From NCBI GenBank assembly GCA_030549335.1, contig CM060188.1:17859501-17923500 (forward strand): DNA of 64,000 nucleotides, in the 5' to 3' direction. Under the pieces are notes generated by a model, which worked only from the letters and a program-made list of their open reading frames with translations, was not told the origin of the DNA and ran no database searches. The translations under genes and the position numbers were made by a program. The DNA comes from Pontederia crassipes. Lineage: Eukaryota; Streptophyta; Magnoliopsida; Commelinales; Pontederiaceae. The first letter of the stretch is position 1; every line of letters starts with the position of its first letter. Of the stretch, positions 3,695 to 55,630 are shown piece after piece.

Positions 3695-4787
3695 CACTAA
3701 AAAAAATTACCATTTTTCGACGGACAATTTCCGACGGATAGAAATATGTCACAATTTGTGACGGATTTTCCAACGTTTACAACTGTCGGAAATAAAAATA
3801 ATAAATTATGTAATTTATTATATTATTATTTTATTTTTTGACGATTAGGAACGTCGATATTTTCGACGAATATCCATCCGTCACAATTTTCGTTAGATTT
3901 TTCGACGGTTATGACCGTCAGAAATGAAAATAATAAATTATGTAATTTGTTATATCATTATTTTACTTTTCGACGATTAGACGAATTTTTCGACGGTTAC
4001 GATCGTAAAAATGAAAATAATAAATTATGTAATTTGTTATATTGTTATTTTATTTTTTGACGATTAGGAATGTCGATATTTCTGACGGATATTCATCCGT
4101 TGCAATTTCCGATGGATTTTTTGACGGTTACGATTGTCGGAAATGAAAATAATAATTTATTTTTCGACGATTAGAAACGTCAAAATTTGACGGATATCTA
4201 TCCGTCACAAATTTTGACGGAATTTCCGACGATTACAACTGTCAAAAATAAAAATAATAAATTATGTAATTATTTATATTATTATTTTATTTTTTGACGA
4301 TTAGGAACGCCGATATTTCTGACATTGTAATCGTCGGTAAATGTATAATAATATAATATGAGGAGTATTTTATTAATATAATTAGCAACAGTCCAAACCG
4401 TCGCAATCCAACGGTTCCGATCGTCGGTAATAATTAGCGACAGTTCAAACCGTTAGTAAAATAAAAAAATAAATATTGTATAAGTATTTTATTTTTATAA
4501 TTAAATAATTTTCGATGGTTTCGTCAGTCAGTAACTAAAAAATAATAATATAACATATTACCGACGGTTCGGACCGTCGATAAACTAAAAAATAAACATT
4601 ATATATATGTAAGTAATATTTTATTGTTATAATTAAATACATTCCGATGGTTTGGACCGTCGGTAACTTTAAAAATAATTAAATATTACATTAATATATA
4701 TCTTTACTAATTTTTCGACGGTCATAGCCGACGGTAATTAAAAATACTCTCCTCTGATCTTTTTTCGTTTTTTCGCTTCCCAACTTT

Positions 4788-4818
<31 letters not shown>

Positions 4819-5573
4819 GCATTTTTACTTTCCCACTCTCCATTCTCCACTTATTTCACCCATTCCTCTCTCTTTCTCCATCTCCTATTTTGTCGGCCCG
4901 ACCCGTCGGCGACTTCTCCGGACCGGCGACCCTCTCCTCATTGGAGACGACCCGCCGGCGATCCCTCTCTCTCCATCTCTCTCCAGCCAGATCGGCCGAT
5001 CCAGCCGCTCATGGCTGGATCTGGCCGATCCGGCTGCCCGCGATCGGATCTGGCCGCGGGGGCAAGATCGGTCGTGACCAGATTGGCTGCCTGCGGCCCG
5101 GATCGGTCTCCTGCGGCCCGGATCGGCCCCCTGCGGCCCAGATCTGGCCGTCCGGCTGCCAATTTTTTTATTTTTAAAAAATTCTTTACGACGGTTGCGA
5201 CCACAACTGTCGAAAGTTTCGACGGTTTGTGACCGCCGAAAATTTCGACGAATTGCGACGACCGTCGAAAGTTTTGACAGTTGCGGTCGTCGAAAACTTT
5301 CGATGGTTGGAACCGCCGGACTTTTCGGACGGTTACAACCGTCGAAAGTTTTCGACGGTTGGAACCGTTGGGACTTTTCGGACCGTTAGAACTGTCGATA
5401 TTTCCGACGAATTTTTTCCAATCGTCGGAAATCGATTTGTGACGATCATTTTTCCAACGGATCAATTCCGTCCGAAAAACTGTCGAAAAATGTATTACCG
5501 ATGAGTTTTGGGTTGATTACGACCGTCTATAATCAACATTTTTTTTGTAGTGATCAGTGTTTTACTTGTAGTG
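3695..5573. mobile_element. CACTA element E1, 1879 bp, TSD ATT (unit 1 copy)
   Basis: Starts CACTAAAAAAAATTACC and ends TTTACTTGTAGTG, with the 3-bp target duplication ATT at 3692-3694 and 5574-5576. The paralogous sequence upstream of B1 reads TTTATTCCAGCTTGTG at 13139-13154, an exact empty site with one ATT. The left half has about five tandem modules of roughly 100 bp built on CGACGGTTACGACCGTCG with AT-rich linkers, as expected for subterminal transposase-binding repeats. The right half has a (TA)n tract (about 4796-4817), a GC-rich core (about 4880-5160) and more GACGGT repeats. The 3' end carries two TAGTG termini 20 bp apart (5549-5553 and 5569-5573). There is no transposase, so movement would need a partner in trans. 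Confidence 0.88.
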
Positions 5574-5794: not shown

Positions 5795-6232
5795 GGATTA
5801 TTTCCTCTAACCACCCCTAAATTATCACGAATTTTCACATTTAACCCTAAATTATGAACTTCATTTTTTGGATACCTAAACTATCGCAATTTTTTCAATT
5901 TTGTCCTTCCGTCCAAGCCCGTCAACTTTTCGATTAACTTTGATTTTTTAGATTTGTGAAAAATAAAAAATGCCCATATGCGAAAGAAATCTCTCTTAGA
6001 GAGAGAAAGAGAGGAGAGGGGGGCGTGTGCAGGGAGAGATTTTTTCGCATGGCGCATTTTTGACTTTTTACAAATTCGAAAAAATAAAGTTAACGAAAAA
6101 GTTGACGAAATTAGACGGAAGGATCAAATTGAAAAAATTATGTTAGTTTAGGGATTCAAAAAATGAAGTTCATAGTTTAAGGTTAGATGTGGAAAATCGT
6201 GATAGTTTAGGAGTGGTTAGAGGAAATAATTC
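5795..6232. mobile_element. Mutator-like MITE M2, 438 bp, 9-bp TSD (unit 1 copy)
   Basis: Starts GGATTATTTCCTCTAACC and ends GGTTAGAGGAAATAATTC, forming terminal inverted repeats that extend imperfectly for more than 100 bp. The 9-bp target duplication TAATAAATT is at 5786-5794 and 6233-6241. The paralogous site upstream of B1 (13344-13352) has a single TAATAAATT and no insert. The centre carries a purine-rich GAGAGAGAAAGAGAGGAGAGG block. Terminal sequence is related to M1, so both belong to one family. Confidence 0.88.
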
Positions 6233-6241
6233 TAATAAATT

Positions 6242-6990
6242 TAATTTCTTTACTCTACAAAAGAAAAAAATCCTAATGAAATTTTTAATATGAAGAATAA
6301 ATAACTTTTTCTTGAATTCACAAGATCATCTAATTGTCAATCTTTAATTTGATGGTCATTTGGTCTATTATCAATATAATTTTATGTTACTTTTGACGTG
6401 TTATGATGTAGTTGACCATAATCAAACCATGAAGAAGGCCAAATGTCTCAAAACGTGAAGGACCATGCAGCCCTCATGAAAATGATCAAAATATATATAT
6501 TCCACTCGAATATGATACGATGAGTTTAAACATCCATTAATTGATGTGCTTGATGGTGTGAGACTTTACTCTTACTTTCATGGGTAATATCCTTTTATTC
6601 GGCTAGTAAACAACGCTATCGATTGAAGTGTTCCAATGCGTCTTCCATTAGAAATAGAAATATGTAATTGTTTTTTTCTTCCTCTAATTGGATAAAGAAA
6701 GTAAAAACTTATTTTACTTATTTATAAATCAGAAAAAAATAAGACAAAAATCTCAACTTATTTTTTGTAAAAAAATAGATCAGTTTGATCAATAAATGTA
6801 CTATTTTATTTTTAGAATATATATAACTTTTTTACATTTTTTATATTATAATATTAATGACATTTTGATCATTTGATTAAAATAATAATTTAAAATTTTA
6901 TTATTATCAAACACTATAATTACTTATTTTTAGAATTAACTTAACCATTAAATTATTTGTCAACATTTTAACTTATAAGCCAAATGAGCC
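6242..6990. other. Upstream AT-rich region of A1 with small inverted-repeat piece
   Basis: No gene is seen. Bases 6635-6678 (GCGTCTTCCATTAGAAATAG and following) match the reverse complement of 9783-9835 in the 3' flank of A1. Bases 6680-6990 include TTATAAGCCAAATGAGCC, a phrase common at the ends of small plant MITEs, but no complete element could be bounded. Confidence 0.45.
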
Positions 6991-7094
6991 TATAATAATC
7001 TCTTAATTGAATTGTCGTGTGCAAGGACAAAAAAAAAGAGTATATATATATATATGACATAACCCCTTACTAAGGAATTACATTTTAATCATGG
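6991..7094 (-). repeat. Inverted relic of the RING gene 3' flank, upstream of A1
   Basis: Read on the - strand, this segment aligns with the A1 3' flank at about 8915-9012. Shared blocks are CCATGATTAAAATGTAATT, AAGGGGTTATGTCAT, GTCCTTGCACAC and TTCAATTAAGAGAT, in the same order. Together with the piece at 6635-6678 it marks an inverted copy of the gene's downstream region. A1 therefore lies between inverted arms about 1.8 kb apart. The segment is most likely what is left of a former head-to-head gene copy. Confidence 0.75.
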
Positions 7095-7808
7095 ATATAA
7101 ACAAAATAAAGAACATATTTTAGATATAAACAGAAAATAACATAAAAATTGTAACGTTGCTTGGCCAATACTAACTACAATTATAGTTATAGAAAAGATA
7201 ACTTTTTATTTTTATGGATACAGGTCACTTTTATAGAAAACTGTAGTTAATATATTTACAGTAAAAATTTTGATTGATTTAGGATTTATGGTTTACAGTT
7301 TAGGATTAGCTTTTTTTATTTTAATTAATAATAACCATTTCTGGTTATTTCTTTATATTTTTCTGGACGTCTGATGTAATCCTTGTGGGTGCAAAATGCG
7401 GTGCCTTTAAGAAAAAAAAGAAAGACATACTCTATAGTCTACATTATTATTTAAGTATTTTTTAACAAATAACTTAAATACAGATATACTCGATAATTAA
7501 CAATATACTATATTTCACTGCAATATAATATTATAGTTATTTTTGTCATGTGGTTCCCCAAATTTTGATATTAATACTTTTATTTTATTTATTTAGTCTA
7601 AGTCAAGCTCTTGTTTTGGTCAATTTTTTTTATTTTCTCCAAGAAAATAATTTACTTATTTAATCTAAGCAAAATTCTTATTTTTATTAATAGCGAAATG
7701 GAATTTACATTCCTTAGTTCGTATTCTTTTATTTTTCAGATATATTTGATATCTAATATTTGATATTAGTGAACTTCTAATTAAGAGAATTATTATAAAA
7801 TTAGATTC

Positions 7809-7990
7809 AACATATTTAGAGTAGCATATTCGGGGACATAATAAATTTAATCATAACATATTTATGTAATATTAATCTAATTATGATTCCTAATTCGATT
7901 AGGATTTGATTTTTCTTATTAGTTCGTATATCTTTATATTAAGTCTCGCCTAAACTAATCCTCTCCGCTCTCCGCGTTTAGCAATTGATC
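7809..7990 (+). promoter_or_regulatory. Shared proximal promoter and leader of A1
   Basis: About 180 bp directly before the ATG are almost the same before A1-A5 and B1 but absent before B2 and B3. The block contains the near-palindrome TCCTAATTCGATTAGGA at 7888-7904, a TATA-like TTTATATTA near 7933-7941, and a leader with two CTCTCCG units. The start site is not known. Conservation across paralogs that differ further upstream is the main support. Confidence 0.5.
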
Positions 7991-8710
7991 ATGGCGACGT
8001 CGACGGCTTCACGCATGGACTCCTCTCCACTGCTGCCAACACCCCGGCCGTCGCATTGGAGAAATATGCGGTACCGCAACGCGGCCGTATCCATCCGTGG
8101 CGGCGTCGTCTCCGTGTCGGAGGACGACGTCTCCCACGCCGGCGAACAGGAGGTCCAACTGCAGGTGGCAGTCAACGTGGTTACGCTCACCCTGACGCCG
8201 CCGCCGTCTTCGATCCGCAGGCAGGACAGTCAAGTCACCTATGCCAACTTCCCTCTGTCTCAGCCGCTCGGCTTCCGGGAGTTGCTCCCCGATTCCCTCC
8301 TCAATCGTCCTGACCTGGACGACAGCTACGCCGACTTCTTGGTCGAAATCGTCAGCTTCTTCGCGCTCATTCACCAGTTCTCGTACATTGGGACTCCCCG
8401 CACGCTCTGGATGCAGCTCAGCATCGACGTCGTCGTCGTCGAGACGGAGGCGGAGACGGCTCCTCCTCCGCTACCTGCGGCGAGACCGCAACTCGAGAAG
8501 ATAATCTACGACGAGGGAGGAGAGTCGACGGAGTTGAGTGAGACGGCGTGCCCGATATGCCTGCAGGACTTTCAAACCGGCGAAGAACTGGGGAAGACGA
8601 TGTGTGGCCATCCCTTTCACCCTCACTGCCTCGGCAGATGGTTGGAGCGGAATCCCGTCTGCCCTCTCTGCCGGTCTCGGGTTCTCCTGACGGATGCAGC
8701 TGACGATTAG
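7991..8710 (+). CDS. RING-H2 E3 ubiquitin ligase, copy A1
   Basis: Single-exon gene of 239 aa. The C-terminal RING-H2 finger has its eight zinc ligands at C187, C190, C205, H207, H210, C213, C224 and C227 (C-x2-C-x14-C-x-H-x2-H-x2-C-x10-C-x2-C). The E2-contact positions I189, W217 and P225 usual for active RING ligases are present, so the predicted role is transfer of ubiquitin from an E2 to a substrate. No signal peptide or membrane helix is seen, so it is probably soluble. Residues about 55-150 form an alternating hydrophobic, beta-rich region of unknown family, perhaps for substrate binding; a Pro-rich linker (about 157-165) precedes an acidic stretch and the RING. The chosen ATG has a good plant context (ATCATGGCG). 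The frame is open further upstream only to a TTG at 7985, which is not a likely plant start. The substrate is unknown. Confidence 0.93.
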   Translation: MATSTASRMDSSPLLPTPRPSHWRNMRYRNAAVSIRGGVVSVSEDDVSHAGEQEVQLQVAVNVVTLTLTPPPSSIRRQDSQVTYANFPLSQPLGFRELLPDSLLNRPDLDDSYADFLVEIVSFFALIHQFSYIGTPRTLWMQLSIDVVVVETEAETAPPPLPAARPQLEKIIYDEGGESTELSETACPICLQDFQTGEELGKTMCGHPFHPHCLGRWLERNPVCPLCRSRVLLTDAADD

Positions 8711-9836
8711 CTTGTACGCACGGCACATCCCCTCGCCACAACGAAAGCATGGAGGCCGTGTCCCGGTTCCAGTTTCAGAGATCTGTTTACACCTCAATTA
8801 AATTCCCTCGTCGACTGCATGTCTTGCCGAGAATTTGTATTTTGCTTTTGTTCTTTTAAGAAGCAGGACATTGTTTTGTTTTTAATTTGCTGGCCAAAGA
8901 GTCATCTGATAACTCCATGATTAAAATGTAATTATCTCGTAAGGGGTTATGTCATGTATAATACACATTTTTTTCGTCCTTGCACACGGCCATTCAATTA
9001 AGAGATGATTATATACACAGTTTATATGTTATGAGATCTTTGTGCACGTGTTTAGTTAATTAAGTGTGTTTCTACCGTTCTATAATACATATATTTTATT
9101 TCGAATATGTACTCGATGCATATTATTTCGTCTTCTCTCGTAGTTTAAATTTTAATGTATCGATTATCGTAATTCAAATTCTTTAAATAGACGAACTCAA
9201 TAGAAGCTTTAAGTATTGCCCTCAAATATCAACAAGAAACTTGTCTCCACGATTAGGTGTCCCATTTATGAATTTGTCAACACAACACAGTTATAAAGAT
9301 CATCACCTATTACATTGTGCGCCTACAAAAAGTTAAGTTTTTGTAATAAGCCTCTTTTAAGATTTACGATAAGTGCATGTAAACACGTAAATTATATCGA
9401 CATTAATTATTGTGAACGTGCAGGATCTATGGACATATTAAAATTTATGTAAACATGCAAATTATATCGATCAACACGTTATTTAGTAAATATATACTAT
9501 GGGTATGTTATAGGTGCGATTATATATCACGATTTAAAAAAAACATTAATTTGCATGCGTGAAAAAATTATTCATAATAAAAATTATGCATTTTTATTGA
9601 AAAAATTAACTTGTGTCTAATTAATTTATACCATATTTACGTCGTATAAAGTCTTCATTTATTTATATATTCATTTCGAATACACAACTTTGAGATTGAA
9701 AACGTGTATATACATATATAGATATAAACAGAAAAGAACAAGGAAAAAATTACCATGTATAATTTTCATACTTCCGCTATCGAGCAAAAAAAAAACCAAT
9801 TACATGCTTCCATTTCTAATGGGAGTAAGGCGCACT
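8711..9836. other. 3' UTR and downstream flank of A1
   Basis: The first 200 bp or so are GC-moderate and conserved in the A copies, with a T-rich TTTGTATTTTGCTTTTGTTC near 8835-8854 that could serve as a plant far-upstream polyadenylation element. The remainder is AT-rich, conserved behind A1-A4, and stops exactly where E2 begins. Bases 8915-9012 are the right arm of the inverted repeat described at 6991. Confidence 0.6.
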
Positions 9837-11335
9837 CACTATGAGAAAGGAAAATAAAAAATCCATCAGAAACCAAATTTCCCGACGAGTTCTGCGACGG
9901 AACCGATCCATCGAAAAAGTCGGCATTGCAAATGATTTTCGATGGACGCGAAAAAACCGTTAGAACTTTCGATGATTAGGGCTGTCTCCAATGGTTTGTA
10001 AACCATCGGAAGTTACGACGGTTAAGGCCGTGAGAAGTTCCAACGGCTACGATTGTCAGAACTTTTCAAGGTCATAATCGTTGGAAGTTCCGAGACAATA
10101 ATCGTTGAAACTTTCGACGGTTACAACCATCTAAGCTTTCGATGATTATCTTCTTTTCCGACGGCCCGTCCGTTGGAAATGATTTTTAAAATGTAAAAAA
10201 AATTAGACCTCCTCGCGGCGGATCCAACTGCCCACGTCCTGATTCGTCGCCCGGTGAGCGGAAGAAGGCCGCCATGCAACAGATTCGGCTGCCGCCGCCC
10301 ACGATCTGATCCGCCACCTAGCGGTCGTGGATGGTCTCCCAAGGCCTGAAATGGCCGCTTGAGGGCGGTGACAGATGAGGCCGCAACCGACCACATCGCG
10401 GGAGCGGGAGAGGAAAAGGAGCTGCTAGATCGTGGTCAAATCGCGAGTGAGGGAGTGGGAAAGGGAACCGACTGAGGGAGAGAGCTCCTTCGGAGGGAAA
10501 GAGCGCTGCCAGATAGAGCGCCATTGGAGGGAGAGAGCGCTGTCTGAGGGAGAGAGCGTGGGAGGAAGAGGGACTTCGTTCGGTGGGAGTGAGAGAGGGG
10601 GAAGAGATGGAGAGAGGGGAGAAAGATATATGGTGATGTGAGGGAAAAAGTGGCGGGGAGGACACGCGTGAATGAAATTAGAATAACCGACGGTCCGAAT
10701 CGTCCAAACCATTGAACATAAAAGTTATATTATAAATAAATTTATTATTATTTAATTATCGATGGTCCAAACCATCAGAACCACCAATGGCTCGAACTCT
10801 GTCGGTAGTTCCGACTGTCGGAGCCTAATAAAAACTATACATAGGCATTAAATTATATTATATACAATTTTATTATTAATTTAATTATCGACGGTCCAAA
10901 CGATCGGAACTATCGATGGACTCAAAATTTGTCGATAGTTCTGACAGTCCCGACCTTTAGAAATATTAATAATAAAAAAACTAAACATGGGCGTTATATT
11001 ATATTATATATGAATTTATTATTAATTTAAGGTTTATTTTCATAAATCTCTCCTAAACTAAACATAGGTGTTATATTATGTTATATATAATTTTTTTTAT
11101 TAACTTAATTACTGATGGCCTGAACCATCGAAACTACCGATGGCCCGAAATCCTTCGATAGTTCCGACGGTCTGGGCCGTATGAAATATTAATAATAAAA
11201 AATTAAACATGTGTGTTATATTATATATAAATTTAATATTAATTTAATTACCAGTGATTCGAACCGTCAAAACTATCAACAGCTCGAAATCCATCGGTAA
11301 TTACCGAGGGATTAGGCCGTCGATGAACTACAAAA
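9837..11335. mobile_element. CACTA-like element family E2, second copy of unit 1
   Basis: Begins CACTATGAGAAAGG directly after the gene A 3' flank, a mutated form of the CACTACAAGAAAGG terminus of sister copies. It has the same order as the copy at 1-1900: GACGGT motifs, GC-rich core (10200-10460), GGGAGAGAGCGC repeats, then spaced CGACGGTCC motifs. It lacks MITE M1 except for a left-end remnant near 11031. The right end is not resolved. No transposase is visible. Confidence 0.55.
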
Positions 11336-11638
11336 CATTGAAGAGTATTTCCAATTTTTACAAAGTTTAAAATCTAAAAATTAGATGTTGTTTTACATGT
11401 CCTCTTTATATCTATTAGTTTTTTAAAATTTTTAAATAGTGCGTATCATATTTAATTTTTATTGTAATTATTATTTTATAGATTCATTGAAATATCGCAA
11501 ATGAACTCGTGATTTCTCACATCTTTGCATGCCCTTGAACTATTGTTAAATCTGTTTTATTCCTAAATGATTTTATTATTCTGATTTTTTTATGAGGTGT
11601 GGTGCCTCGTGTTCCTAAATAAAGTGTCATAATTTTAA

Positions 11639-12425
11639 GGATATAACCGAGAGCACCCTCTATGCTTACAACCGCATGATTGAGATGCGACAATCGACGA
11701 TATGTGTCCGATTCAAATTTTTTCTCGCACTGAATGGGGGATGGTTCAACTCTTTTCGTCGGTCAAGCGCAAGTCGAACCCTTCATGCCCCTAACAAGTT
11801 CTACTCACCATTTTTTCTGCTCGCGTTGAACGCCCTAACAACCTCGGTGCTCGCCGTCATCTGCTCGAGATCTCGTGGTCACAAGATGTCATCATCGGTT
11901 CTGGTTTTGCTCGCAAGACGTTGTCGCTGCTATTGTTCGCAAGTCGCTCGCAAAGCCATCGCTCACGAAGACGTCGATTCAATATCGTCGTCGCCGTACT
12001 TGCGAAGAAGTCGGTGTTGCTCGCTATGATGCTGTCATCCCCACTTCTGCTCACGAAGACGATTATTTGCTGCTCGTCGCCGATTATGCTCACAAGATGT
12101 TCGTAGTCATCGGTGCTCGTGAACTGTTCTTCATCCTTGGTGCTCACGAGTTGTTTGTCATCGCCTCGCAAGCTTTTCGTGGTTGTCGGTGCATGCAAAG
12201 ACATCGAGATCAATTGGAAAAAGTGACGTCGACTTCTCGCAAAGACGCACCCGTCGACTGAAGAGAGCGCAAACCGGCGATGGAGAGCGTTGAACTGGCG
12301 AACAAAAATGATAAAAAAATAGCCTCGTTGAACCGCGTGTGCGCACCCACCTTTGCATCTCAATTCAACCAATGAAAAACTTGGCAGCTGGTTCTCACAA
12401 CTTAAGTTGGGAGCATCCCATTAAA
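11639..12425. mobile_element. GC-rich element R upstream of B1
   Basis: Paralog of 2200-2984. The flanking direct repeat is exact here: TCATAATTTTAA at 11627-11638 and 12426-12437. Ends are ATAACCGAGAGCACCC and GGGAGCATCCCATTAAA. Several overlapping open frames occur in both orientations; none matches a recognisable family and they are not conserved in frame with the 2200 copy, so no CDS is called. Confidence 0.45.
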
Positions 12426-12437
12426 TCATAATTTTAA

Positions 12438-13788
12438 TAGTTGACAACATATTTTCTTTTAAAAAATAAATAGGAACGCAAATGTCATGTCTTGAAAAAT
12501 ATAAAGTGAAAATACATTTAAAGTTTAAAGGACAGTAGAATTTTAAAAATCATCAGTTAAATGCGAAAATTCATGAAAATTCAAGAGGTCTAAAAGAAAA
12601 TACTTCTTTTTAATATTTGATGCCTCTAATTTTACTTTTCAAAATAAAATGTAAGAATATATATTTCCATTTTTTTGTTTTTAATTACTTACTATTTTTT
12701 CTTCTTCAAAACAAAAATGATAAATATTTGTAAACAACATAAGTTCATTATTATGTTGTAACAAAAAGTTTCCAATATAAGTATCAATGCATATTTTATA
12801 TTCATGTATATTTATGTTACTTTACTGTAATAAATTGTTTTGGTCATTATATACTATTTTTTTCTAAATTTATAATAAAACCCATATTCATTAATATCTA
12901 AATATTATACATTACTCAATTACGATCTATTTGTCAAACTTTCTATTATGAAAAGGGAGCGAGAGCGAGAGTGAGATTACGCACACAAAAAAACATAAGA
13001 AATGTGAAAAATCTAAATCATAATTCACATAGGTGACGTTTGGCTGAAGAATAATATATTCTTGAAAATATTATATTCTATGTAATATTTTTTATTTTGT
13101 TTGGATGTTAAATTAATATTCTAAAATGATGAAAACTGTTTATTCCAGCTTGTGTTTGGATGCAAATGAATAAAGTCATTTGATATTATGCTATTTGACC
13201 ATTTTACCCTTCTCTTAACAAATTGTTCTTGTATTTTAATTATTATCTTTTTTGGTTATTAATTTTATTATATTATAATTAGTAACCACATTTATGGACT
13301 ACATTATTTTATCTTTCTAATATAACGTATGTAGTAAAAGTATTAATAAATTTAATTTCTTTACTCTAGAAAAGAAAAAAGAATCGTAATCAAATTTTTA
13401 ATATGAAGTATAAATAACTTTTTTCTTCAATTCACAAGATCATCTAATTGTTAATCTTTAATTTGACGGTTGTTTGGTCTATTATCAATATAATTTTATG
13501 ATACTTTTGACGTGTTATGATGTAGTTGACCATAATCAAACCATGAAGAAGGCCAAATGTCTCAAAACGTAAAGGACCATGCAGCCCTCATGAAAATGAT
13601 CAAAATATATATATTCACTCGAATATGATACGATGAGTTTAAACATTCATTAATTGATGTGCATGATGATGTGAGACTTTACTCTTACTTTCATGAGTAA
13701 TATACTTTTTTTTTTAGTAGTATCCTTTTATTCGGCTACTAAACAACGTTATTGATTGTAGTGTTCCAATGCGTCTTACTCCCATTAG
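12438..13788. other. AT-rich block upstream of B1 with empty sites for E1 and M2
   Basis: This block is colinear with 3000-6620 upstream of A1 but lacks both transposons. The single ATT at 13142-13144 is the empty E1 target, and the single TAATAAATT at 13344-13352 is the empty M2 target. No gene is seen. Confidence 0.75.
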
Positions 13789-13926
13789 GAACGATATTTC
13801 GTGGCTGAAGGAACGATATTTCGTGGCTGAAGGAACGATATTTCGTGGCTGAAGGAATGATATTCCGTAGCCGAAGGAACGATATTCCGTAGCTGAAGGA
13901 ACGATATTCCGTGGCTGAAGAAACGA
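13789..13926. repeat. 22-bp minisatellite upstream of B1, six copies plus a partial
   Basis: Exact 22-bp period with unit GAACGATATTTCGTGGCTGAAG; copies start at 13789, 13811, 13833, 13855, 13877 and 13899. Later copies change TTTCG to TTCCG and GTGG to GTAG. The corresponding places before B2 and B3 have only three copies. Related three-copy arrays lie at 19540, 41319 and 62225. Confidence 0.9.
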
Positions 13927-15419
13927 TTGTGCACTTTACGTTGCATGAATGGACATGCAATGCGACGTCACAAAATATCGAGCAGCGTCAAATTATCATG
14001 ATAGTACATGACGGCAGTCCTGCATGTGACACGAGTGCTATGAGTTATACAACAGTTGTGTATAATTAATTTTAAAATAAATTTTCATATTTAAATAATA
14101 CATTTTTGTACAATTTTTTTCTTGAAAAATGTTAGTTTTTATTTTATTAATAATAAAATTATATTTTTTCAAAACTCACCAAAAATTAATCCATGACATA
14201 AATTTTTTCTTTCATATCAACTTCCTAATTCCTCATCTTCCACTCCATCGAAGTAATATGTCATTTCAACTATTTGCCAAAAACGTGGGAGAAATCACGG
14301 TTCCATTTTCAAACGTCGTTAAGTAAATTATGTATATGTGAATTAAAAAACACTTGTTTATTTCATCTAATCAATTTATTTTATAAGTTTTATAATAATA
14401 TATTAATAAATAAATAACTATATATATGAACTAATATATATATTAATAGATATACAAGCTTAATATTAATAGTAAATATTAACTAATAATTTTTTATTAT
14501 ACTAAGATACTAATTATATATACTATATCTATATAATATATAGTATAAACCATATAATACATTATTAAATATAATTAGTAGGTAAAAAAGGTAACTTGTT
14601 ATCAATGACAATAACTTTTTTTTAGAACTTTCACGTATGATCACAATATTTTTTTCTCTTATTTAACAAAATTTGAATAAATTCTGTCTAAGTTTTACTA
14701 TCCAAATATTGTGACGATGCCCTGTTATGTTTGGATGTTAGACTTTATGTTCTTATTAGTTTTTTTTAGAATAAATCGATTAAATAAAAAATTTTAAACG
14801 TGATGTTTGAATGAAAAATGCAATAATGAAGATTTAAAAATTGATTTGATAGATAAGTTTTATTGGGTGTTTGAATAAAATGTAAGAACTAAAGAGATAA
14901 ATTATTATTGTGTGAAATTTAATTAAAACACTAGATTTTTATTGAAAAATAAGCTGTGGCACAATATATTAATATTAATTTTGGTTTAAATTTTCTTTTA
15001 TAAGTATTTAATATTGTAGTTAACGTAAATAGTATCTTCATACGATCCTAATATATTTTAATACATTATTATTTAAAACACCATATATACGCATATATGT
15101 TGAATTCATTTAAAAATTATGCAATTAATATTATAACGTTATATATATAATAATATTATACATTATTATAGTTGGTTTTGTCATGTGGTTCCCCAAAATT
15201 TGATATTAGTACTTTTATTTTCTTTATTTAATCTAAAGCAAGCTCTTGTTTTGGTCAATTTTTTTATTTATTTAATCTAAGCAAAATTCTTATTTTAATT
15301 TATAGCGAAATGGAATTTATATTTCTTAGTTGTATTATTTTATTTTTCAGATATATTTCTTATCTAATATTCGATATTAGTGAACTTCCAGTTAAGAGAT
15401 TTATTATAAAATTAGATTG
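13927..15419. other. Distal upstream region of B1
   Basis: Bases 13927-14066 match 19660-19790 of the unclassified repeat downstream of B1 (shared GTTGCATGA, TGCGACGTCACAAA and TGTGACACGAG). From about 14088 the sequence is AT-rich and matches 23840-24330 upstream of A2. Nearly all of it from about 14092 on is missing before B2 and B3. No gene is seen. Confidence 0.6.
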
Positions 15420-15615
15420 AACATATTTAGAGTATAATATTCGGGGACATAATAAATTTAATCATAACATATTTATGTAATATTAATCTAATTATGATTC
15501 CTAATTCGATTAGGATTTGATTTTTCTTATTAGTTCGTATATCTTTATATTAAGTCTCGCCTAAACTAATCCTCTCCGCTCTCCGCTCTCCGCTCTCCGC
15601 GTTTAGCAATTGATC
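15420..15615 (+). promoter_or_regulatory. Shared proximal promoter and leader of B1
   Basis: Same conserved block as before A1, with the TCCTAATTCGATTAGGA near-palindrome at 15499-15515 and a TATA-like TTTATATTA. The leader has four CTCTCCG units, the longest version in the window. B1 is the only B copy that still has this block. Confidence 0.5.
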
Positions 15616-16341
15616 ATGGCGACGTCGACGGCTTCGCGCATGGACTCCTCTCCACTGCTGCCAACACCCCGGCCGTCGCATTGGAGAAATATCCGGTACC
15701 GCAACGCGGCCATATCCATCTGTGGCGGCGTCGTCTCCGTCTCGGAGGACGACGTCTCCGACGCCGGCGAACAGGAGGTCCAACTGCAGGTGGCGATCAA
15801 CGTGGTTACGCTCAGCCTGACCCCGCCGCCGTCTTCGATCCGCAGGCAGGACAGACAAGTCACCTATGCTGACTTCCCTCTGTCTCAGCTGCTCGGTTTC
15901 CGGGAGTCGCTCCCCGATTCCCTCCTCAATCATCCTGTCCTGGACGACGGCTACGCCGACTTCTTGGTCAACATCGTCGGTCACTTCGCGCGCACTCACC
16001 AGCTCTCGTACAGTGGGACTCCCCGCACGCTCTGGATGCAGCTCAGCATCGACGCCGTCGTAGTCGAGACGGAGACGGAGACGGGGACGGTTCCTCCTCC
16101 GCTACCTGCGGCGAGACCGCAACTCGAGAAGATAATCTACGAGGAGGGAGGAGAGTCGGGGGAGTTGAGCGAGACGGCGTGCCCGATATGCCTGCAGGAC
16201 TTTCAAACCGGCGAAGAACTGGGGAAGACGATGTGCGGGCATCCCTTTCACCCTCACTGCCTCGGCAGATGGTTGGAGCGGAATCCTGTCTGCCCTCTTT
16301 GCCGGTCTCGGGTTCTCCAGACGGATGCAGCTGACCATTAG
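15616..16341 (+). CDS. RING-H2 E3 ubiquitin ligase, copy B1
   Basis: Single-exon gene of 241 aa, the founder-like form of subtype B. Zinc ligands are C189, C192, C207, H209, H212, C215, C226 and C229; the RING is identical to that of subtype A, although four codons in it differ silently from A. Outside the RING about 25 residues differ from A, for example I26 for M, C36 for R, L92 for P and H123 for F, and the acidic linker is two residues longer (ETETETGTV). It keeps the segment VSVSEDD that B2 and B3 lack. It is probably soluble. With its complete promoter it is the best candidate for an expressed B gene. ATG chosen for its ATCATGGCG context. Target unknown. Confidence 0.92.
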   Translation: MATSTASRMDSSPLLPTPRPSHWRNIRYRNAAISICGGVVSVSEDDVSDAGEQEVQLQVAINVVTLSLTPPPSSIRRQDRQVTYADFPLSQLLGFRESLPDSLLNHPVLDDGYADFLVNIVGHFARTHQLSYSGTPRTLWMQLSIDAVVVETETETGTVPPPLPAARPQLEKIIYEEGGESGELSETACPICLQDFQTGEELGKTMCGHPFHPHCLGRWLERNPVCPLCRSRVLQTDAADH

Positions 16342-16781
16342 CTTTCACGCACGGCACAGCCCCTCGCCACAACGAAAGCATATGGAGGCCGTGTCCATAT
16401 GGAGGCCGTGTCCCAGTTCCAGTTTCATTGATGTCTTGCTGAGAGTTTTGTATTTTGCTTTTGTTCTTTTAAGAACCAGGGCATTGTTTTGTTTTTAATT
16501 TGCTGGCCAAAGAGTCATCCGATAACTCCATGATTACAATGTAATTATCTCGTAAGGGGATATGTCATGTATAATACACAATTTTTTCCGTCCTTGCACA
16601 CGGCCATTCAATTAAGAGATGATTATATATACACAGTTGATGTTATATGATCTGTGTGCATGTGTTTAGTTAATTAAGTGTGTTTCTATCCTTCCATAAT
16701 AATAATATATATGTATATATATATATATATATATATAATTTCGAACATGTACTCGATGCATATTTCTATGTCTTCTCTACT
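16342..16781. other. 3' UTR and downstream flank of B1
   Basis: Homologous to the A1 3' flank up to about 16780 (shared TTTGCTGGCCAAAGAGTCAT and GTCCTTGCACACGGCCATTC). A short direct duplication ATATGGAGGCCGTGTCC lies at 16381-16411, and a (TA)n tract near 16710-16736. Homology to A1 ends where a MITE begins. Confidence 0.6.
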
Positions 16782-17293
16782 AGTTCGGTTTGGTGAATTA
16801 ATCAAAATTTTAAATAAAAATCAAAATTAACCGAAAAATAAAATAATATTTCTTATTATATATTTTAAAATAAAATTCATATATTATACATATTTTTTCA
16901 AACATTTTTGCACTCTTTCATCAACACATCTATATATTCCTTGATACATTATATTCTTCTCTTTTTAATGTTTGTTACATGGTCTATGTTTAAAAATAAT
17001 TTTATATCCATTCATTTGTTAAATGTTATAATTGATTTATATTCAAATTTGATATCAAACTTTTAATTGGACCCATACTATATTTTATTTTAATATTTTA
17101 AACCTAAAAATAATAAAATTATTTATTTCATAAAATATTATTTTTTCTTTGGATAATTCGATGAATTAATCGAACCAAAACAAAAAAATTTGGTGAATTA
17201 ACTGAACCAAACCAGAAATTTTGGACCGAATAACGGATAAAAATTTTTAGTTCAATTCGGATAATTAATCGATCCAATTAGACGGTTAATTAT

Positions 17294-18451: not shown

Positions 18452-20421
18452 AAGACGGAACAAGGTTCCTTGATATAGAACTTCATACCTTGTCGGCACC
18501 GAGTCGCTATAGTGAACGACGAGAGTCTCCTCGCGTTTGCTTGTGGTACAACTCAATTCTCTTGCTTCGATGGAGTTTCTCTTTGTTTTGACAAAATAGC
18601 TTCCTCCTTGCGACTTGAACTTCTCTCCCCCACCATTGCTTTTGCCCAAGGGCTTTGGTACTTGTCTTGGCACGATTGATTTGGCTTCAATGACTAGTGA
18701 GCGAAAGTTGGGTGATTCCGTCGTTTCAACTTCGTCCTAATCCAAAGCTTCAATCCCTCTGCTTGAAGAGCACCAAGTTTGATCTTCATCCATCTAGGAA
18801 CACTGTAGGCGGAGTTCGGTGATATCTTTCACGTCCTCCTTTAACATGCCATTTTGGCTAATGCTGAAAAATGTGACATTGACCTCAAGTCTCGACTTGT
18901 CAGGGTTTGTATAATTGATGAACTAATGTCTGCCTCCGTCCCATGCCTTCATGGGATCTATGTTTGTCACATTCCACATTGTCGCGATGGTATCGCCATC
19001 ATCAGTTCGCCACATCTTGCAGGGTTCTTGAATATGTCTTCTTTCGATCTTGTAACCTCCTTTAAAGCTTCGGCAACACCTTTTGGTATGGATGAGGCGA
19101 TATCATTGTGCCCGTTCATGAAGATGATGCACATTTAATACTCGTCCCTCCACAATCTGGATGAAGTAATGTCTTTGTGCTGGTCGACAAAGATCATACA
19201 CCTTTGACATACTTGTCATCGGAATGCTTTGACAAAGATCATCTCCTTCGGTTGGCAGCGGGACGCTTGACAGCAGCATGCCAAGGTGCATCAAATGCTC
19301 GATGCTTAGACCATTTGCCAAATTAATCATTCGAGTTCAAACATCGATTTATGTTGGCACGTAGCAGGTTCATCCCAACTTTGGATGGGTGACATTATGC
19401 CGCTCGCAGGACGACACTTGACGAGGCAAACAAGGCAAACAGCTCGTCCCTAAGTGTTTGCAAGTAATCAACTCTTTGCCCCATTTGTGAGAGTCATCAT
19501 GACGTGACAGGTGAGGCTTGCGAACGATAAGATGCTTGTGAATGATGCTCCGTAGACGAAGGAATGATATTCCGTAGCTGAAGGAATGATATTCCGTAGC
19601 CGAAATGGACCATGAACCCTGATGCTTAACATTGAGCCAACTTCTCCCATGGAGTGGTTGTGCGCTTCACGTTGCATGACTGAACATGCGATGCGACGTC
19701 ACAAATACTGATAAGTTCCAGATTATCATGATAGTGCATGACTACAGTCCTGAATGTGACACGAGTACTCTAAGTTACACAACAATTGTGTAGTGTGACT
19801 TCTTGGTATGGGTAGCGCAAGACCATCATGCGAAGCATGTTGACACTTTTAACGCAGCACGACACTTCAAGATTCCCGACTATATACCTGGGGTGGTGAT
19901 CTGCTCGAGTGAGCGACGCGTGACTATCCCGATTAGGCGGGTGATCAATTCGTCATCATAGTGCATGACGAACGTTTCTTGACACGACACGAGTGTACGA
20001 TGAACTTGTTGCGGGTCACAACTAGGCGTGCGGCGATGAAGCTTGCCAGGTATTTCTCATTGGCGTTCATGATCAGGGTCCATGGTACCAGTGCACCTGA
20101 GCGTAGTAGAGTTTTTGAGCGGAAGCACTTTTCTACGCCATCGCACTTTGCGACGACACAAGCGAGTAATCATCGCGTGGTGATCCGAGCTGAGACCTCA
20201 TGCGGCGACTAGATTGATAGGCACTTAACCAAGTCTATTTTGAGTAACAGCGAAAGTTTTATGGTCGAAACGACTATGCCGAAAGTTGCTCTTATAGGCA
20301 TTCGATTATGGACATAACTAGAGTGTTCGACTACTCGTCAGAGGTCCGTGACATTAGCGCATTGAGGACTAATTCAGACGCTTGAACGCTTAATGTTCGA
20401 AGGGGCAACTAATGTACGACT
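18452..20421. repeat. Unclassified repeat-derived block downstream of B1
   Basis: Mixed-composition DNA present in all three units with very few changes. Short open frames occur on both strands (for example 18854-19138 and 19103-19330) but none is recognised. Part of it (about 19540-19790) is repeated upstream of the B genes. A motif of the type TAGTGCATGAC...GACACGAGT recurs inside (19731 and 19960). It may be worn retroelement or other repeat DNA; class unknown. Confidence 0.4.
19540..19604. repeat. 22-bp minisatellite, three copies (unit 1, downstream of B1)
   Basis: Units start at 19540, 19562 and 19584 with the consensus GAATGATATTCCGTAGCTGAAG, the same family as the array at 13789. Confidence 0.85.
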
Positions 20422-54531: not shown

Positions 54532-54610
54532 CTTGTACGCACGGCACATCCCCTCGCCACAACGAAAGCATGGAGGCCGTGTCCCGGTTCCAGTTTCAGA
54601 GATTTGTTCC

Positions 54611-55630
54611 CCTAGCGGTCGTGGATGGTCTCCCAAGGCCTGAAATGGCCGCTTGAGGGCGGTGACAGATGAGGCCGCAACCGACCACATCGCGGGAGCG
54701 GGAGAGGAAGAGGAGCTGCTAGATCGTGGTCAAATCGCGAGTGAGGGAGTGGGAAAGGGAACCGACTGAGGGAGAGAGCGCCTTCGGAGGGAAAGAGCGT
54801 TGCCAGATAGAGCGCCATTGGAGGGAGAGAGCGCTGTCTGAGGGAGAGAGCGTGGGAGGAAGAGGGACTTCGTTCGGTGGGAGTGAGAGAGGGGGAAGAG
54901 ATGGAGAGAGGGGAGAAAGATATATGGTGATGTGAGGGAAAAAGTGGCGGGGAGGACACGCGTGAATGAAATTAGAATAACCGACGGTCCGAATCGTCCA
55001 AACCATTGAACATAAAAGTTATATTATAAATAAATTTATTATTATTTAATTATCGATGGTCCAAACCATCAGAACCACCAATGGCTCGAACTCTGTCGGT
55101 AGTTCCGACTGTCGGAGCCTAATAAAAACTATACATAGGCATTAAATTATATTATATACAATTTTATTATTAATTTAATTATCGACGGTCCAAACGATCG
55201 GAACTATCGATGGACTCAAAATTTGTCGATAGTTCTGACAGTCCCGACCTTTAGAAATATTAATAATAAAAAAACTAAACATGGGCGTTATATTATATTA
55301 TATATGAATTTATTATTAATTTAAGGTTTATTTTCATAAATCTCTCCTAAACTAAACATAGGTGTTATATTATGTTATATATAATTTTTTTTATTAACTT
55401 AATTACTGATGGCCTGAACCATCGAAACTACCGATGGCCCGAAATCCTTCGATAGTTCCGACGGTCTGGGCCGTATGAAATATTAATAATAAAAAATTAA
55501 ACATGTGTGTTATATTATATATAAATTTAATATTAATTTAATTACCAGTGATTCGAACCGTCAAAACTATCAACAGCTCGAAATCCATCGGTAATTACCG
55601 AGGGATTAGGCCGTCGATGAACTACAAAAC
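54611..55630. mobile_element. CACTA-like element E2, second copy of unit 3, left-truncated
   Basis: Corresponds to about 10317-11335 of unit 1. The left terminus, GACGGT-rich left arm and part of the GC-rich core are lost in the A5 junction deletion (about 1.5 kb in unit 1 coordinates). Confidence 0.55.

Follow-up and report, generated by a model that had tools for sequence, protein, structure and literature searches.

A fragmentary inverted copy of a RING-H2 gene's own 3′ flank lies upstream of gene A1 in Pontederia crassipes, and we consider it very probable that this copy, referred to here as the left arm, is a neutral and eroding relic of a rearrangement that has been carried along by duplication. 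We propose that the 3′ flank of a RING gene, from its inner to its outer piece and about 15 nt further, was copied in inverted orientation to a position upstream of one gene of the family, before the A-type modules on contigs C5 and C6 separated and probably before the A and B genes split. Most of the interior of the copy is missing, with a dispersed, MITE-like repeat of ~280 nt in its place; the resulting scar was then carried along passively with the unit through tandem and segmental duplication, and deletions have eroded it since. The copying itself may have proceeded through templated repair or local inverted duplication, and we found no target-site duplication or junction signature that would identify the mechanism.

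RING-H2 gene arrays

The window (the whole stretch of 64,000 nt that was analysed, C6:17859501-17923500) is part of a genome of 1,132,208,429 bases in 43 contigs. It contains eight intronless RING-H2 genes, all on the plus strand, which start at 7994 (A1), 15619 (B1), 24583 (A2), 31387 (A3), 37423 (B2), 46361 (A4), 53815 (A5), and 58327 (B3). Gene A1 (7994..8710, plus strand) encodes a protein of 238 aa with a profile match to zf-RING_2 at 5.2e-14. Genome-wide, the RING-H2 copies form two arrays, one on C6 that includes the window and a second on C5; there are at least 24 near-full-length open copies with 87% protein identity or more, 20 on C6 and four on C5, among the matches listed. The coding regions of A1 and B1 are identical at 674 of 717 positions, and their synonymous distance is 0.083-0.098.

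Several features of these arrays were observed alongside the main analysis. In the proximal promoter (7840-7989), A1 and B1 agree at 150 of 150 aligned bases with 14 gapped columns, an identity above that of the coding region, and A1 and the C5 sequence agree at 150 of 154 over 7840-7993. B2 and B3, both of which lack a few codons near the N-terminus, begin to match B1 just ahead of the start codon (37413 and 58317, respectively); the 1.5 kb found upstream of B1 is absent from both and a different sequence, matching 14091 and before, is joined instead, so that the usual promoter may be absent from these two genes. Elsewhere in the C6 array an A gene is broken near codon 152 into opposite-facing halves ~17 kb apart (17784219-17784671 on the minus strand, 17801635-17801886 on the plus strand), between which lie two minus-strand B genes (C6:17788621 and 17796729); this arrangement may reflect an inversion inside the array or an assembly fault.

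An inverted match around gene A1

The sequence-only reading had placed A1 between two pairs of inverted arms, in the order that a single inverted copy of its 3′ flank would give, and self comparison recovered the extended inverted match in the places proposed. The left inner arm (6991..7095, minus orientation) is an inverted copy of the right inner arm (8914..9012, plus orientation), which belongs to the native 3′ flank, with 12-13 mismatches in 101 aligned bases (13 in the core alignment, which has 8 gapped columns, and 12 in a second alignment). Taken without gaps, this pair resolves into 6982-7043/8961-9022 (84% complementary) and 7049-7095/8914-8960 (89%); taken as one gapped match, it extends over 6891-7095 and 9098-8914 with 71% identity across 206 columns and a score of 108 bits, although similarity beyond the core (6991-7095/8914-9012) is weak. 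Across 100 dinucleotide shuffles of 6400-10100, no inverted match scored above 62.5 bits.

Collinear with the inner pair, 6633-6690 within the left outer arm (6628..6690, minus orientation) repeats in inverted orientation the right outer arm (9783..9836, plus orientation), a piece of native 3′ flank that ends where a CACTA-like sequence starts at 9837. The outer arms are 85% complementary over 6642-6680/9787-9825 and 74% in a gapped match of 6642-6712 with 9825-9759; the latter scores 44 bits, a value that 2 of the 100 shuffles also attained with their best match, and the outer arm alone is therefore weaker evidence. Its order is nevertheless correct, and it recurs in the related modules and older flanks described below. 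A 19-mer from the right outer arm has seven matches in the window at up to three mismatches, four of them direct (flanks of A1-A4) and three inverted (upstream of B1-B3), and none in 100 shuffles.

Between A1 and its right inner arm lies the remainder of the 3′ flank (8711..8913, plus orientation), presumed to be the 3′UTR, which shows A-B homology throughout and has no counterpart in the left arm. The right inner arm is also found 3′ of B1-B3, matching between A1 and B1 at 96 of 99 positions, and has 37 matches genome-wide. Two ideas about this core were considered and rejected. It does not appear unusually conserved, given that 67 of 1017 windows of 99 columns across the gene and flank have three or fewer mismatches. 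Gene-less copies at C5:37711310 and C11:11606200 had suggested a short mobile element; however, their similarity continues on both sides, to 8891-9062, inside a larger repeat, so that the ends of the core are not those of an element. The larger repeat is common to the two gene-less sites, at 93-95% identity over stretches of more than 1 kb, and the gene's 3′ flank may have been derived from, or taken up by, a mobile element.

A dispersed repeat between the left-arm pieces

The initial guess that a small MITE-like stretch now separates the pieces of the left arm proved sound. A repeat of ~280 nt occupies 6691..6990, with matches elsewhere covering about 6696-6988. Of 1281 initial candidates for 6690-6990 in the genome, at least 40 are scored matches, nine in the two arrays and at least 31 scattered over many contigs; the scattered matches have 78-81% identity and mostly cover 6702-6980, among the matches listed. 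The stretch is short, dispersed, and present in many copies, as would be expected of a MITE. Internal symmetry was discarded as proof of a MITE, since the self-complementarity of 6654-7053 (58% over 400 nt, 62.5 bits) equals that of the best shuffle match (also 62.5); the dispersed copies were used instead.

Native side, spread, and age of the inverted copy

Four older 3′ flanks, two of which belong to intact genes, show the A1 order of inner and outer piece, and most of the sequence in between is homologous to the right side of A1 (C6:17733219-17734021, C5:51852922-51853718, C5:51868609-51871148, and C5:51889809-51891074). The 10-kb loci surrounding them yielded no left arm. The right side is therefore ancestral, and the left arm a derived inverted copy. 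Past the outer piece the older flanks read CACTTCAATC, and the left arm likewise has CACTTCAATC after a few extra bases, so that the copy extends ~15 nt beyond the limit originally assigned to it.

Nine left-arm modules were identified, eight on C6 and one on C5, corresponding to the array places of the 6690-6990 stretch. In all nine the inner left arm, whole or in part, adjoins the repeat, and the outer arm is present in each of the eight whose outer side was covered, all but C6:17783349. One module (C6:17820843-17821684) sits in an A-to-B spacer, 4.7 kb before the B gene. The C5 module lies upstream of a minus-strand gene (51830575-51831303), and its collinearity with A1 extends from the outer arm as far as the promoter, with identities of 60/62 in the left outer arm, 259/275 in the repeat, and 314/345 in 7096-7440. 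From comparisons of this kind we find good support for an inverted copy older than the separation of the C5 and C6 modules.

We find modest support for an origin that would also predate the A/B split. In a tree of the arms, which is based on about 100 nt and has modest support values, the left arms fall into a single clade (UFBoot 83) and group with the older flanks, apart from the right arms of A and B (UFBoot 78). The right arms of A and B have CTCG and a short AT run, and the left arms and older flanks have TAG and a longer run. The core of A1 differs from that of B1 at three sites, and the left arm has the A-gene base at each of them, an observation that, taken alone, would fit a copy made from A once the split had occurred. 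As a relic, the copy serves mainly as a marker that orders events in the arrays, with the inverted copy arising before the C5/C6 module separation and local losses following later; the repeat was already in place in all nine modules found.

Within the window only A1, A3, and A5 have the inner left arm; the right inner arm accompanies A1-A4 and B1-B3. As A2, A4, and B1-B3 lack the inner left arm, only two of the eight genes, A1 and A3, stand between both arms. Two structural variants that had been pointed out were borne out by comparison of the units in the window: A3 has its arms closer together, since it lacks ~640 nt of upstream sequence (7090-7726 in A1) and its inner arms are 1189 nt apart instead of 1818, and A5 has lost the right arm. 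Among the matches listed, seven of the 24 near-full-length open genes have a left arm within ~1.4 kb upstream, six of these with both arms, and the other 17 have no left arm nearby. Across the arrays the scar has spread passively and has been eroding since. A5 itself is cut ~75 nt past the stop codon and joined at 54608-54611 to the interior of a CACTA-like sequence, a truncation that removes the presumed poly(A) region.

Was there a partner gene?

The sequence-only reading had also postulated a head-to-head partner, now without its coding part. Under this scenario a whole inverted gene once stood opposite A1 and later lost both its coding part and its 3′UTR, which we regard as unlikely. The orientation and order of the arms would suit an inverted gene with its 3′ end pointing away from A1, and inverted B genes do exist elsewhere in the array, namely the minus-strand genes at C6:17788621 and 17796729; these two, however, sit between the halves of the broken A gene, probably in a later inversion, and are unrelated to the left arm. 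Searches of the upstream stretches of seven left-arm modules, in which the A1 coding sequence was detected as a control, gave no tblastn coding remnant and no inverted 3′UTR match in any of the seven. The place expected for the partner's 3′UTR is occupied by an unrelated sequence (7096..7440) that starts abruptly where the left arm stops on its inner side and has neither an inverted 3′UTR nor a translated coding match, and similarity to the flank ends sharply 204 nt past the stop codon. These 345 nt from 7096 are common to six of the seven modules tested, so that any gene loss would have preceded the multiplication of the module. Copying of a flank fragment alone is the simpler explanation.

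Pairing of the arms and possible silencing

One observation counts against a neutral relic, namely that the left-arm core still pairs strongly with the right arm. The A1 arms form a predicted duplex of 93 pairs at -118.1 kcal/mol, compared with -39.0 kcal/mol for the best of 100 left-arm shuffles, and the duplexes of three other modules have -114.1, -113.2, and -75.0 kcal/mol. Such pairing could occur only if an RNA covered both arms. A hairpin or MIR-founder locus would be expected to contain a gene segment that is repeated in inverted orientation and pairs strongly, as here, and one may postulate that RNA crossing both arms would give rise to double-stranded RNA and small RNAs that damp the RING genes or, alternatively, that plus-strand RNA from the left arm would meet the gene's 3′ end with the same outcome. 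We consider such a founder role quite improbable. In its favor, in addition to the duplex, 46 of 86 left-arm 21-mers match the A1-A4 flanks and 32 of 86 match the B1-B3 flanks at up to three mismatches, which would make silencing in trans thinkable. None of the 86, however, matches a flank perfectly, and none matches A5 at up to four mismatches; A5 is left without a target, contrary to the earlier suggestion that small RNAs from the arms would act on all copies.

Precedent for a founder role comes from the inverted duplication model for hairpin/MIR-founder loci, as set out in PMC3237417. As in that model, an inverted gene piece lies near its parent and would be able to pair with the parent's RNA. 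The structure found here differs from the model in that the parent gene lies between the arms, which are separated by 1.2-1.8 kb, and in that only the 3′ flank was copied and is now ~13% diverged and eroding.

Neither selection on the pairing nor co-evolution of the arms was evident in our comparisons. In the C5-C6 comparison, the left inner arm agrees at 50 of 54 positions, with 51 nt, half of the core, deleted on C5, and it is no better kept than its neighbors, the repeat (0.942) and 7096-7440 (0.910). The right inner arm agrees at 96 of 99 positions, compared with 114 of 131 immediately beyond it; being better kept than its surroundings, it seems to be under constraint, as would be expected of a 3′ end, whereas the left arm does not. 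Poly(A)-like hexamers occur within 8796-9081, and the right arm may thus sit at the very end of the mRNA. The A1 left arm differs from other left arms by 3/107, 7/107, and 5/70 mismatches and from its own right arm by 12/101, which suggests that the pairing is not being renewed, as the left arms are closer to each other than to their own right arms.

Further points weigh against a founder role: the 17 genes without a nearby left arm, the ~0.9 kb further upstream at which the A1 mRNA would have to start in order to take in the left arm, and the lack of any Rfam match at the gathering score in 6000-17000. A literature search for tandem RING-H2 arrays combined with inverted repeats and small RNA found no papers. 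Given strong pairing and no sign of its upkeep, we do not claim membership of the MIR-founder class for the A1 structure. Geometry and pairing are all that speaks for a partner gene or a regulatory role, and we infer that the left arm is without function.

A related idea, to which we attach hardly any probability, is that the left arm is a young and weak silencing trigger lowering the dose of an expanding RING array. RING mRNAs would be paired at their 3′ ends by plus-strand left-arm RNA or by read-through from the previous unit, and A5 would have escaped through loss of its target. If small RNAs are indeed made, the family would be bearing a trigger against itself, at an early stage.

Mobile elements in the spacers

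That the arms are instead terminal inverted repeats of a single mobile or foldback element filling the intergenic spacer is very unlikely. In favor of this reading, its geometry in a tandem array is the same as that of a structure around the gene, A-to-B spacers that have no inner left arm carry the outer 19-mer in inverted orientation at either end, and in some spacers an octamer, CACTACAA, adjoins the outer arm at each end. Against it, the older flanks show CACTTCAATC in the octamer's place, a 3-bp duplication is absent (ACT versus TTC), and the right arm is continuous with the gene's 3′UTR in A, B, C5, and the older flanks. Because of what the older flanks read at this place, the octamer in the B spacers is best regarded as a mutated flank. 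A palindrome or foldback with a central CACTA element, to which the octamer at both spacer ends had pointed, was rejected as the main reading for this reason; an inverted flank copy, eroding and carried along by duplication, is the preferred explanation.

CACTA (En/Spm-like) elements start with CACTA(C/T) and have sub-terminal GACGGT-like motifs. The sequence from 9837, beside the right outer arm, resembles them on both counts and differs from them in that neither a right end nor a 3-bp duplication was found. At a candidate right end, itself doubtful, the flanking triplets are ACT and TTC. A search of the window for the right end by way of the expected duplicated site, using patterns from the older flank, gave 0 matches, and no transposase domain was found in the 10 ORFs scanned.

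Other insertions and repeats were observed in the spacers. Another CACTA-like element, at 3695-5573, has ATT on both sides, consistent with a 3-bp duplication, and lies in the spacer before A1; it is absent before B1. Two related self-complementary stretches, 5797-6230 and 997-1528, have inverted identities of 77% and 74%, respectively, and are absent from the matching B1 spacer; we read them as foldback or MITE-like insertions. A minisatellite of the 22-nt unit AGGAACGATATTCCGTGGCTGA, in 6.4 copies at 13787-13927, abuts an outer-arm remnant before B1, and a unit related to AGGAACGATATTCCGTGGCTGA is present in three copies at 19540-19604.
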